This document shows, piece after piece, positions 19,353 through 23,039 of a stretch of DNA of 36,183 nt (positions are counted from its first letter, which is position 1; the number at the start of each line of letters is the position of its first letter). Source of the stretch: a virus; IMG/VR virus record IMGVR_UViG_3300027898_000023, positions 1 through 36,183 of that record. The stretch is one strand, 5' to 3'. The position numbers and the translations under genes are program-made. Below the pieces are notes generated by a model. It made no database searches. It was not told where the DNA came from and saw only the letters and a list, made by a program, of their open reading frames with translations.

Positions 19353-20381
19353 TTAATTTCTTTTAGGGTAGGGAAATGTTTCAAACTGAATCGTTTTTTT
19401 AAGTTGCTTTTCTTCGCGTTTGTCTTTACCTAAGATAAGCGCGTACTTGCCTTTAGCTGGCTGAGTGACTACTGTGTAACGCGCAATTTCTTCGTTCGCA
19501 CGGGCCGTTAACTTTAATCTTATGTCGTTAGGAATAGCAGAGATGTCTTGATACCCGTTAGGTTTGCACCATTCTTTCTGCCATTTGATGCCTAATTGTT
19601 TTGCCCATCTCTTCATTGCAGACGTTTTCGTAAAGTCTCGTTTGCTAACTATCTTACCTGAGGGTAACTGTACGCCACTCGTAACTCCCCACTGCTGACC
19701 TAGGTATAAAAAATTACATGCCTGGTAAATTGTTCCGATCTCACCAGCGGAAGGGTCTGAATAACAAGTAAACAGTCTTTTATGCGTGTTATCCACCATC
19801 CAGCGACACGCAAACATGACTAACCTACTATTAAGGTTTTTAGGGGCCCAGCTTGCAGCCGCACCTCGTTGAATCAAAGCTTCAAACTGTTTATATCGGG
19901 TTGGCATGGTGGGTTCTGACATAAGCACGACGCAAGCCAGCTTACCCTCGTGTCGGGCTGTAAAGCACCATTTTACTGCCCACCCAACTTTCCCTAACCA
20001 CTCGTACCTTTCAATGAATCTGATGTGCTCTTTTGACATGTTTTCAGCCGTCAACTCAAAGTCTTGAGCTTTTAGATCAAATCTAAACCCGGCGGCTAAA
20101 TCTTCAGCAACCGTGTCGTCCCTTCTAATTTTTTGCCAGCAAACTCCGTCTAGCTTTATGTCTGGTTTAACCGGAGCACTGGTGGTGTTTTTAAACTTTT
20201 TAACGACAGATTTAGCGGTTTTAACGCGTTCGGGGTTAAGTAGTTTAAGAGTCTTAGGATGTCGTCTAGCTTCGGCTCTGCACACCTTACACCTGTAAGC
20301 ATAGCCGTCTTTGTTTGCGGTTTTGCGACTAAACATTTCTAAAGGTTTAATTTGTTTGCATTTAGAGCATTTTTTATTCAT
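19353..20381 (-). CDS. Mom-like GNAT-fold protein with N-terminal zinc ribbon
   Basis: 342 residues. The N-terminus holds a zinc-ribbon pattern, CSKC (5-8) and CKVC (31-34), typical of phage HNH-type nucleases. A basic linker leads to a core with 'RYEWLG' (125-130), 'NLNSRLVMFACRWMVD' (~182-197), 'CYSDP' (206-210) and 'GTIYQACNFLYLG' (216-228), a pattern shared with the Mom family, whose Mu member modifies adenine in DNA. The start ATG lies inside the end of the nuclease gene. A DNA-modifying role is inferred from the family pattern; no homology search was possible. Confidence 0.6.
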   Translation of the reverse strand: MNKKCSKCKQIKPLEMFSRKTANKDGYAYRCKVCRAEARRHPKTLKLLNPERVKTAKSVVKKFKNTTSAPVKPDIKLDGVCWQKIRRDDTVAEDLAAGFRFDLKAQDFELTAENMSKEHIRFIERYEWLGKVGWAVKWCFTARHEGKLACVVLMSEPTMPTRYKQFEALIQRGAAASWAPKNLNSRLVMFACRWMVDNTHKRLFTCYSDPSAGEIGTIYQACNFLYLGQQWGVTSGVQLPSGKIVSKRDFTKTSAMKRWAKQLGIKWQKEWCKPNGYQDISAIPNDIRLKLTARANEEIARYTVVTQPAKGKYALILGKDKREEKQLKKTIQFETFPYPKRN

Positions 20382-20932: not shown

Positions 20933-22081
20933 TTAAGCCGACAACTGGACAACGCAGTTCCAGCCGGGGGCCGAACAAATCAAGTTGCCGTAGTAGGCAA
21001 TACGAATTTCAAGGGCATCGGCTGATCCGACTCGTAGTCCCTCGAGACCTTCCATACCATAGGTGAGTATGTGCGGAACCTTGCCCAACGAGCGCAGTTT
21101 CCATGTATTCATAGTCAACAGGTATGCCGTCTGAGGAGGGCACGATCTGTCGGCCAACACAGTTACGCGGCCATAAGCAGATTGGAAGGTGATACCTTCA
21201 AACGCTACCTCAACCTCGTCGTGGTTAACTTGGACGTATTGCACTTTAGCACCCAAAGCGTTGACTAGAGCAGCATAACTAGCGAAATCCATGATACAAA
21301 GATCGGGTTTTCCGCCCTCTCTGTTCAAGAACGCCAGTGCGCTTGTCATACCTTCCTCAATCGTCTGGGACTGAGCGTTATAACGCAATCCAGCCAAACG
21401 AGTGGGGTCTGCGGACCTGTTAACGCCCCAGAATGAGTCACTAGAACTTGGTGAAGTTGTAGGAATCCATGCAGCCAAACCAGACAATGCCAGGTTAGAA
21501 GCGGTTCCTAAAGCACCAGTTGAAGGGATATCACCAGCAATCGACAGGTAAGCTTGTCCTGATCCGATAGCCCAGTTACTAGACAACGTGGCAGCCGATG
21601 CTGTACCAGTGATAACACCAGTTGCACGGTTAACAGCTGTAACAGTAACTGTATCAGAAGAAGGCACTCCACCAGCAGAAGTTGATGCTACTAAAAGCAT
21701 TCCAACCTCAAACGCAACGATCTGTTGAGCGTTTGTCAAAGGCAGAACGACTCCACCAGCAGCAGTACCGCCAGTTTGAGACGAACTAGAGCTAGAGATA
21801 CCACGGGTAGCAGTACCATCACCAAACAGCTCGAACGCTATGTTATTGGTAATATTACGAAATCCCGCATCCATCTGTAACTTGGCAGCATCAACAAAAG
21901 CGCCAGCATTACTTTTAGTTTGTTCCATCAAAAGGTTAGTAATTGTAACCAGTTGATAGTCTTCCACCACATAAACGAAGAAACTAGCAAGCGATGTTGC
22001 AGTTTGTTGGTTTTGGGCGTTAGAGAACGTATGAGAACGACCTTGGGGTGTTCCATACTCTAATGGTACGGGGATATATTT
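20933..22081 (-). CDS. Major capsid protein, exon 3 of 3 (bulk of the gene)
   Basis: Encodes the C-terminal 382 residues, beginning 'KYIPVPLEYGTPQGRS'. The frame has no start of its own at its true 5' end. Joining exon 1 (22949-23039), exon 2 (22847-22908) and this exon gives a continuous 433-residue protein whose N-terminus (ALKELYTDDKEYMKDLVYKE + NPFLALVPKNESPDG) matches, in order, the start of capsid proteins in related phages as I know them. The Ser/Gly/Thr-rich stretch at 'GISSSSSSQTGG' is a plausible surface loop. It follows the scaffold gene and ends before a strong terminator. Fold assumed HK97-like; no motif proves it. Confidence 0.8.
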   Translation of the reverse strand, partial: KYIPVPLEYGTPQGRSHTFSNAQNQQTATSLASFFVYVVEDYQLVTITNLLMEQTKSNAGAFVDAAKLQMDAGFRNITNNIAFELFGDGTATRGISSSSSSQTGGTAAGGVVLPLTNAQQIVAFEVGMLLVASTSAGGVPSSDTVTVTAVNRATGVITGTASAATLSSNWAIGSGQAYLSIAGDIPSTGALGTASNLALSGLAAWIPTTSPSSSDSFWGVNRSADPTRLAGLRYNAQSQTIEEGMTSALAFLNREGGKPDLCIMDFASYAALVNALGAKVQYVQVNHDEVEVAFEGITFQSAYGRVTVLADRSCPPQTAYLLTMNTWKLRSLGKVPHILTYGMEGLEGLRVGSADALEIRIAYYGNLICSAPGWNCVVQLSA

Positions 22082-22846
22082 CAGTGGCCTTTCGGCCTGT
22101 TATCGTAGTGGCTTTTTATCCTCTACTTCTTACAGTTTCCTGTAAGCTCAGCGTACATTTTCATCTTTTAAAGATGCAGAACACTCTTGGGAGTTTTTTA
22201 TTCTGTTACTACCGCCCTTGCTTATATTTTCATCTGCCCACATTGGTTGCAGATTAGTATAATGAGCGGCTTGTTTGAATTGCTCGGAATCCGTTAAATC
22301 AAATAAAGACAAAGCCTTAATATGATCTACGTGCCATCCATCTACTCCCCAATTTTCCCAAGACATTCCTGGTTGAAATTTAGATTCTAGATAGGTTTTT
22401 AACTCAGCTACAGAACACCCTAGGTCTTTTACTGCCGAACCTTTTTTATCGCCACGTGTGAAAAATTTTCCAATTCTTGTACGTAAATTATGCGCAATTC
22501 TAAAGTTTAGGTCAGTATTAAATCTAGTTTGCCAATCTTTGTTAATGGCTTCCTTGTTTTTTATCCTAAAAGCTTTTTTCTTAGCTTTTAAAATATCAGC
22601 GTTTTTAGCCTTATACTCTCTCATGTAAGCCTGTTTTGCTGGCGACATATTTCTATGCTGACGGCAAACTCCGATCTTATTATGTTTATTGAGTTTTTTG
22701 CTACAAACACTGCAATTCACAGTTTCAACTCCTACGCGTTACGGTGGCTAAGTTATGTTATTATCCTAGCTTACCTCGGTATTCCCTTGGCTGTCAAGCT
22801 TTAGGGTTCACCGATTTTGTTCTGTTTAACGCTGGCAATTATATCT
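22082..22846 (-). other. Group I intron (765 nt) in the capsid gene
   Basis: The 5' exon end CGCTGGT pairs with intron GCCAGCG as P1, with a U.G pair at the splice site. ATATAATT before it pairs (7 of 8) with the 3' exon start AAATATAT as P10. The intron ends in G (22082). CGGT/ACCG (22813-22810 with 22780-22777) and CCCT/AGGG (22806-22803 with 22787-22784) form P4-P5. CGTAG (22736-22732) pairs with CTACG (22108-22104) as P7. Terminal GNRA hairpins CTTACAG-GAAA-CTGTAAG and GGCC-GAAA-GGCC precede the 3' end. Splicing joins GGT to AAA in frame. An HNH gene lies inside. Confidence 0.75.
22148..22720 (-). CDS. HNH homing endonuclease inside the intron
   Basis: 190 residues from GTG 22720 with AGGAG eight bases upstream. 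Residues 3-21 hold a cysteine/histidine zinc pattern (CSVCSKK...CRQH). The HNH core lies at 'WHVDHIKALSLFDL' (His130, Asp132, His133) and 'YTNLQPMWADENISKGG' (Asn156, Asn165). Such enzymes spread their host intron by cutting intron-lacking alleles. The gene occupies the loop between the P7 strands, and the frame's end is followed by the P9-like hairpins. Its codon use appears more A/T-rich than its neighbours. Confidence 0.85.
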   Translation of the reverse strand: MNCSVCSKKLNKHNKIGVCRQHRNMSPAKQAYMREYKAKNADILKAKKKAFRIKNKEAINKDWQTRFNTDLNFRIAHNLRTRIGKFFTRGDKKGSAVKDLGCSVAELKTYLESKFQPGMSWENWGVDGWHVDHIKALSLFDLTDSEQFKQAAHYTNLQPMWADENISKGGSNRIKNSQECSASLKDENVR

Positions 22847-22908
22847 ACCAGCGAATCCGTCTGGCGACTCATTCTTGGGCACTAGGGCCAAAAATGGGTT
22901 CTCCTTAT
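22847..22908 (-). CDS. Major capsid protein, exon 2 of 3
   Basis: A 62-nt coding island: the last two bases of a Tyr codon, then K E N P F L A L V P K N E S P D G F A G. It supplies exactly the 20 residues missing between exons 1 and 3 in the capsid N-terminal arm. Its first six bases ATAAGG pair with CCTTAT inside the 40-nt insert before it. Confidence 0.8.
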
Positions 22909-22948
22909 CGTTTTCCAGAGGATTATCTCGGCATAAGGTATTGAAATT
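22909..22948 (-). other. 40-nt core-less group I-like mini-intron
   Basis: Removing these 40 bases restores the capsid frame (GTG T + AT AAG gives Val-Tyr-Lys); leaving them gives an immediate TAA stop. The 5' exon ATCTCG(T)GT (22957-22949) pairs with GCCGAGAT (22932-22925) as P1, with one bulged U and U.G at the splice site. CCTTAT (22938-22933), just 5' of that G, pairs perfectly with the 3' exon start ATAAGG (22908-22903) as P10. The insert ends in G. Only 16 nt follow P1, so no catalytic core can fit. Confidence 0.7.
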
Positions 22949-23039
22949 ACACGAGATCTTTCATATATTCTTTATCGTCAGTATATAATTCTTTTAAAGC
23001 AGCGATCTGATTCGCGCTATTTGCATATACAGCAGCCAT
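22949..23039 (-). CDS. Major capsid protein, exon 1 of 3
   Basis: Encodes 30 residues from ATG 23039 (GGAG six bases upstream) plus the first base of Tyr31: an N-terminal arm with 'NQIAALKELYTDDKEYMKDLV'. An in-frame TAA follows unless the 40-nt insert is removed. A small hairpin CCCCA-TGG-TGGGG (23085-23073) lies in the 5' untranslated region after the scaffold stop. Confidence 0.8.

Follow-up and report, generated by a model that had tools for sequence, protein, structure and literature searches.

Group I introns are regarded as self-contained, each bringing its own core. Among the systems closest to the one described here, tandem group I introns in Twort orf142 give rise to exon skipping, and the group III introns of Euglena plastids are drastically shortened and thought to depend on parts from others. 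Phage group IA introns with a homing endonuclease gene include those of T4 td, SPO1, Twort, and LittleE, and a capsid gene as the host of a group I intron has a precedent in LittleE (PMC3706429). Engineered Tetrahymena ribozymes (spliceozymes) excise internal stretches of RNA in trans (PMC4094466). Here we describe a gene for a major capsid protein (MCP) in an IMG/VR virus record of 36,183 bases (IMGVR_UViG_3300027898_000023; the whole of this stretch is called the window, and feature positions refer to it). The gene is interrupted by a 40-nucleotide (nt) insert without a group I core, which we term a mini, and, after a 62-nt exon, by a complete intron of 765 nt. In our reading, to which we give a probability of roughly 0.8, the 40-nt insert represents a group I intron that is not autonomous; its splicing would be carried out by the core of the full intron that follows it in the same transcript. 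With the same confidence, it would belong to a natural autonomous/non-autonomous pair, in which guide-only introns of 30-63 nt carry their own splice-site template and are spliced by a complete neighbor.

The full intron of the window shares with the phage group IA introns the core (P3-P8, P7.2, and P9.1), the U.G pair at the 5′ splice site, the terminal G (omega-G), and an HNH gene, whereas the mini has only P1 and P10 and no P3-P8 core. As in Twort orf142, a group I core would use the splice sites of a neighboring intron in one transcript, but in Twort both introns have cores and joining at foreign sites is an alternative product. The minis also resemble the Euglena group III introns as reduced introns that would rely on supplied parts, although the latter are derived from group II introns and differ in boundaries and chemistry. 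With the spliceozymes and trans-excision ribozymes they share the principle that a group I core removes a stretch of another RNA segment defined by P1, P10, and a terminal G (PMC4094466). Those systems are engineered and carry the guide in the ribozyme (PMC4094466); here, the guide lies in the mini and the core would therefore have to accept a ready-made P1-P10 helix.

The interrupted gene, on the minus strand and near the terminase and portal genes, encodes an SU10-like MCP (Pfam PF17236, phrog_9953). From its ATG at 23039, the unspliced DNA can be read for only 30 codons. Excising 22948-22909 (40 nt) and 22846-22082 (765 nt) leaves exons of 91, 62, and 1149 nt and a protein of 433 residues, which aligns over its full length with IMG/VR homologues, most of them uninterrupted. 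An initial annotation, made from the sequence alone, had proposed two inserts around a 62-nt exon; both are present, and their double removal restores the MCP exactly. A tblastn search of cultured phages with the MCP gave no match, and relatives sought in genome contigs were not found.

The same annotation had credited the first insert with only P1, P10, and a terminal G, which we could confirm. P1 is formed by AUCUCG-[U]-GU with GC-CGAGAU, with a single bulged U, and P10 by CCUUAU with AUAAGG (6 bp), and the insert ends in G. Dinucleotide-shuffled inserts equal this pairing with p ~0.001. The mini thus has the splice-site features of a group I intron, with a U.G pair at the 5′ splice site, P1, P10, and a terminal G, and lacks the P3-P8 core. 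Minis are 30-63 nt long and the guide takes up ~12-15 nt, leaving no room for a core; the mini therefore appears to be a group I-type substrate, and not itself a group I intron.

For the second insert, P1, P4-P5, P7, and an HNH gene had been predicted, and all were located; the P10 pairing also claimed for it is weak, with two contiguous base pairs. A U.G pair lies inside P1 at the 5′ splice site and an omega-G stands at the 3′ end. When homologous introns were aligned after removal of their open reading frames (ORFs; n = 22), a group IA core emerged with P3, P4-P5-P6, P7, P7.1/7.2, P8, and P9.1. P3 clearly covaried, the P3 and P7 strands were covarying or conserved, and a last hairpin preceded the 3′ splice site. 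Relatives of this intron include introns in Staphylococcus phages and in the DNA polymerase gene of an Alicyclobacillus phage. An Rfam search with the full intron gave no group I match, either at the gathering score or when relaxed to E 10, and Rfam recognized none of the introns of this set. Because compact introns of the set without an ORF were missed as well, we read these failures as low sensitivity of the models. Judged by sequence and predicted structure, the 765-nt element is a complete group IA intron.

Ninety-nine different MCP genes from IMG/VR were each aligned to the protein using a script that allowed introns of any length and phase (L-numbers denote homologous MCP genes of the IMG/VR set, and sites are given as residue.phase). 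Twenty-one of these genes carry 23 minis of 30-59 nt, at seven sites (22.0, 28.0, 30.0, 30.1, 34.0, 46.0, and 51.0). Searching IMG/VR for the IA core brought in three more genes and five more minis, in L465 (35.0), L522 (30.0 and 51.0; a divergent MCP with 58% identity), and L461 (46.0, and 413.1 close to the C-terminus). This makes 28 minis of 30-63 nt in 24 genes, although the inserts of L040 and L041 are identical and L072 and L268 share one, so that independent sequences are slightly fewer. Two other candidates were discarded: length changes of 15-27 nt near residue 190 proved to be in-frame loop variation, and the matches to a loose sequence pattern for window-type minis in IMG/VR were due to chance.

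All 28 minis follow an exon that ends in U and themselves end in G, and their removal restores the MCP protein exactly. All 28 lack a group I core, and all contain one contiguous guide consisting of a P10 half (4-8 bp), a G opposite the splice-site U, and a P1 half; that is, a stretch reverse-complementary to the start of the 3′ exon is followed by one reverse-complementary to the end of the 5′ exon. Examples are CCUUAU-G-C-CGAGAU in the window (one exon U bulged), AUUCUUU-G-UCGUCU in L047, AACGG-G-UUCUCUU in L040, and AUACUU-G-CCCGCG in L048. Shuffled inserts matched the real guide score with p ~0.001 in most minis and 0.007 at most, and when minis were paired with the exons of another site, the lowest own score was reached in 5 of 380 trials. 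The P10 half tracks exon changes at site 30.1 (CCUUAU/AUAAGG, CUUUAU/AUAAAG, UUUGU/ACAAA, and UAGCGU/ACGCUA) and at site 46.0 (CCGUC/GACGG and ACCAUC/GAUGGU). P10 is stronger in the minis than in the full introns (4-8 bp versus a median of 3, p 4e-7), as one would predict for a P10 that has to keep the 3′ exon in place with no attached core to assist it. The final two nucleotides are alike in minis and full introns, mostly UG. An in-frame stop occurs inside 22 of 23 minis; 18 of these have it ahead of the guide, at most a single codon beyond the 5′ splice site. Mini lengths fall into all three classes modulo 3, and the minis are therefore not coding.

Minis occurred only in genes that also have a full intron. 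Among the 99 genes, 21 had both elements, eight had just the full intron, 70 were free of either, and no gene had a mini alone, i.e., minis were present in 21 of 29 genes with a full intron versus 0 of 70 without (Fisher test 2.7e-15, with no correction for kinship). A tree of 103 MCPs shows 17 changes of the mini trait, and in independent pairs on supported branches the full intron changes in the same way as the mini in ~8 of 8 (p 0.008). L304 has empty sites where its near relative L465 has both mini and full intron, the two being 96% identical over the upstream 165 nt. In all 28 cases a full intron follows the mini downstream, at an exon distance of 23-119 nt in the 23 measured and similar in the others. 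In some cases the neighbor is an ORF-less intron, either compact (~203-210 nt) or of 346 nt (L465), as in L040/L041, L308 at 55.0, L461 at 424.1, and L465; the mini of L465 measures 34 nt, and in L040 a mini of 33 nt accompanies an intron of 203 nt. The idea that minis need the HNH gene was therefore rejected; the endonuclease is not what a mini needs. The initial annotation had also suggested that the core of the large intron may dock the P1-P10 helix of the small one, and this proposal gains support from the co-occurrence, from joint gain and loss on the MCP tree, from the constant position just upstream of a full intron, with or without an ORF, and from adherence to group I splice-site rules without a core.

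By the length of the P1-P4 linker, the full IA introns separate into two classes, with 13-15 nt (no P2) or 35-38 nt (with a P2 hairpin). Of the P2-less IA introns in the first set, 18 of 20 have a mini directly upstream, and the remaining two are in mini-bearing genes; of the introns with P2, 0 of 7 have a mini there. Exchange may be easier for a P1 that P2 does not lock in place. Certain sites hold either kind of element: 51.0 has a full intron in the window, L038, L057, and L307 and a mini in L048, and 413.1 has a full intron in L328 and a mini in L461. Such sites suggest an origin of the minis from full introns through deletion.

Rfam also missed a second class of group I introns in the same MCP genes, which are compact (~202-227 nt), have no ORF, and share the motif AUUGACUUGG; they were seen in L040, L308, L306, L324, L055 (407.1), L328 (413.1), and L461 (424.1). 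The MCP gene of L461 has five interruptions, with the full introns at 53.0, 311.0, and 424.1 in addition to its two minis, and the divergent gene of L522 has at site 89.2 an insert of 181 nt, shorter than the other compact introns.

We infer from these data that the minis are spliced, with the downstream core as catalyst and the mini still tethered to it on removal. The mini would have retained only the substrate half of an intron, i.e., the guide pairing both exons, the U.G at the 5′ splice site, and the 3′-terminal G. The complete P2-less group IA intron 62 nt downstream would fold its core, and the P1-P10 helix of the mini, on its short upstream tether, would dock there before or instead of the intron's own P1. 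A guanosine would then attack after the exon U, and the freed exon would attack after the terminal G of the mini, joining exons 1 and 2. Finally, the full intron would excise itself. The mini would leave by the usual two-step group I chemistry, and one core would serve two introns. The mini would be removed first, because prior loss of the full intron would remove the tether.

Several observations weigh against this reading. To our knowledge, P1 is covalently joined to its own core in every natural case. P1 of the window mini and of three allele-mates requires one bulged U. L510 has a P2-less full intron without a mini, and the L461 mini at 46.0 lies directly upstream of a P2-containing intron, so that the idea of a P2-less core always accompanying a mini does not hold absolutely. 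Co-occurrence and proximity could also result in part from joint transfer of the alleles by homing and co-conversion.

Another possibility, which we consider improbable, is that the mini is a group I substrate whose core comes from another molecule, such as excised intron RNA, another intron of the virus or of the host, or a protein aid. The guide rule alone is silent on which core acts, and engineered cores do act in trans (PMC4094466). However, no mini was found in any gene without its own full intron, and minis always lie close upstream of one. A diffusing core also predicts minis elsewhere, and there was no clear excess: a de novo scan of ~2.6 Mb of fetched DNA returned the MCP minis and 24 other matches versus 31 in a shuffled control, and a scan around 97 other phage group I introns returned 18 weak matches versus 10.7 in the control, none convincing, with a detection rate on known minis of 15 of 23.

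A block at the DNA level against homing endonucleases has been proposed for MobA and the T4 bypass element. That the minis are chiefly such blocks, associated with full introns through co-conversion and removed by some other route, seems to us quite unlikely. HNH genes are present in most neighboring full introns, mini and full intron come and go together, and the L048 mini occupies what is elsewhere a full-intron site, all of which would fit. However, the ORF-less neighbors listed above also have minis, and a block leaves the P1-P10 guide, the omega-G, and the constant order without explanation. Such a role may nevertheless be compatible, as an evolutionary reason, with splicing by the neighboring core; speculatively, a spliceable mini would keep its site occupied against rival homing endonucleases.

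Ribosome bypassing, by which the mini would stay in the mRNA and ribosomes would hop over it, is very improbable. Like the T4 gene 60 bypass element and MobA, the minis are short non-coding inserts in a phage gene near a homing endonuclease (the T4 coding gap is reported by Bonocora et al. 2011 to adjoin one), and, as in gene 60, the exon end is part of a hairpin and a stop is reached within a few codons after it. However, take-off and landing codons matched in 0 of 28 minis, by which we rejected bypassing, and it gives no reason for P10, for the U|..G| ends and other group I splice-site rules that the minis obey, or for dependence on a group I intron. No more credible is reading of the insert through a +1 frameshift, or its origin as an error or decay product in a broken gene: the 40 nt of the window mini are open in the +1 frame, but the in-frame stops and the three length classes argue against it, as does the recurrence of such inserts, with exact restoration of the protein, at seven or more sites and in independent metagenomes.

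If the minis are indeed spliced by a neighboring core, the pair of mini and full intron would be categorically new; we found no natural example in the open literature, a search that left subscription papers and preprints mostly outside its coverage. It would be the first natural case of one group I active site serving several introns in one mRNA, and a group I counterpart of a spliceosome-like division of labor that recurs among capsid genes of a single uncultured phage group. It would also show splicing split between a catalyst and bare substrates, a step needed by models in which the spliceosome originated from group II introns. The more than 20 variants with covarying guides offer a natural system for testing P1 docking, and they are a warning that short introns interrupting capsid genes escape both phage gene callers and Rfam.

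Table 1. Features of the interrupted MCP gene and its two inserts in the window
Feature	Position	Strand	Remarks
MCP exon 1	22949..23039	-	30 codons + 1 nt, last base U; N-terminus conserved in homologues
Mini P1, exon strand (AUCUCGUGU)	22949..22957	-	U22951 bulged; U22949 is the splice-site base
In-frame UAA across the 5′ splice site	22947..22949	-	upstream of guide
Core-less mini-intron, 40 nt	22909..22948	-	between MCP exons 1 and 2
Guide, P10 half (CCUUAU)	22933..22938	-	pairs with 3′ exon AUAAGG, 22908-22903
Guide, P1 half (CCGAGAU after G22932)	22925..22932	-	G22932 wobbles with splice-site U
MCP exon 2	22847..22908	-	62 nt; separates mini from full intron
Predicted exon 1-exon 2 junction of spliced MCP mRNA			CTCGTGT then ATAAGGAG
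Complete group IA intron, P2-less	22082..22846	-	765 nt; omega-G at 22082
P1 of full intron	22830..22853	-	exon CGCUGGU with intron GCCAGCG, U.G
P3, 5′ strand CAGAAC	22819..22824	-	3′ strand GUUCUG at 22182-22177; P3 covaries in homologous introns
P4-P5 (AUCGGUGAACCC ... GGGAAUACCGAGG)	22774..22815	-	
P7, 5′ strand GCGUA (G-binding helix)	22733..22737	-	3′ strand UACGC at 22155-22151
HNH/endonuclease VII-like ORF, 190 aa, inside core	22148..22720	-	in P7.2 region; 3′ end overlaps P3′, P8, P7′
P9.1 hairpin GUAGAG..CACUAC	22105..22126	-	
MCP exon 3 (SU10-like MCP)	20933..22081	-	1149 nt

Directly 3′ of the MCP gene lies a free-standing endonuclease VII/HNH gene (PF02945; 20374-20916, minus strand), a second endonuclease besides the intron-encoded one. 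It is followed directly by a gene for a 342-residue protein (19353-20381, minus strand) whose N-terminus is rich in Cys (KCSKCKQIKPLEMF..YRCKVC) and whose C-terminus bears a Mom family domain (PF25680). Among the homologous genes, L020 has a stop codon at residue 346 of an otherwise intact MCP gene, and L320 has a one-base shift near the same residue, perhaps a sequencing error.
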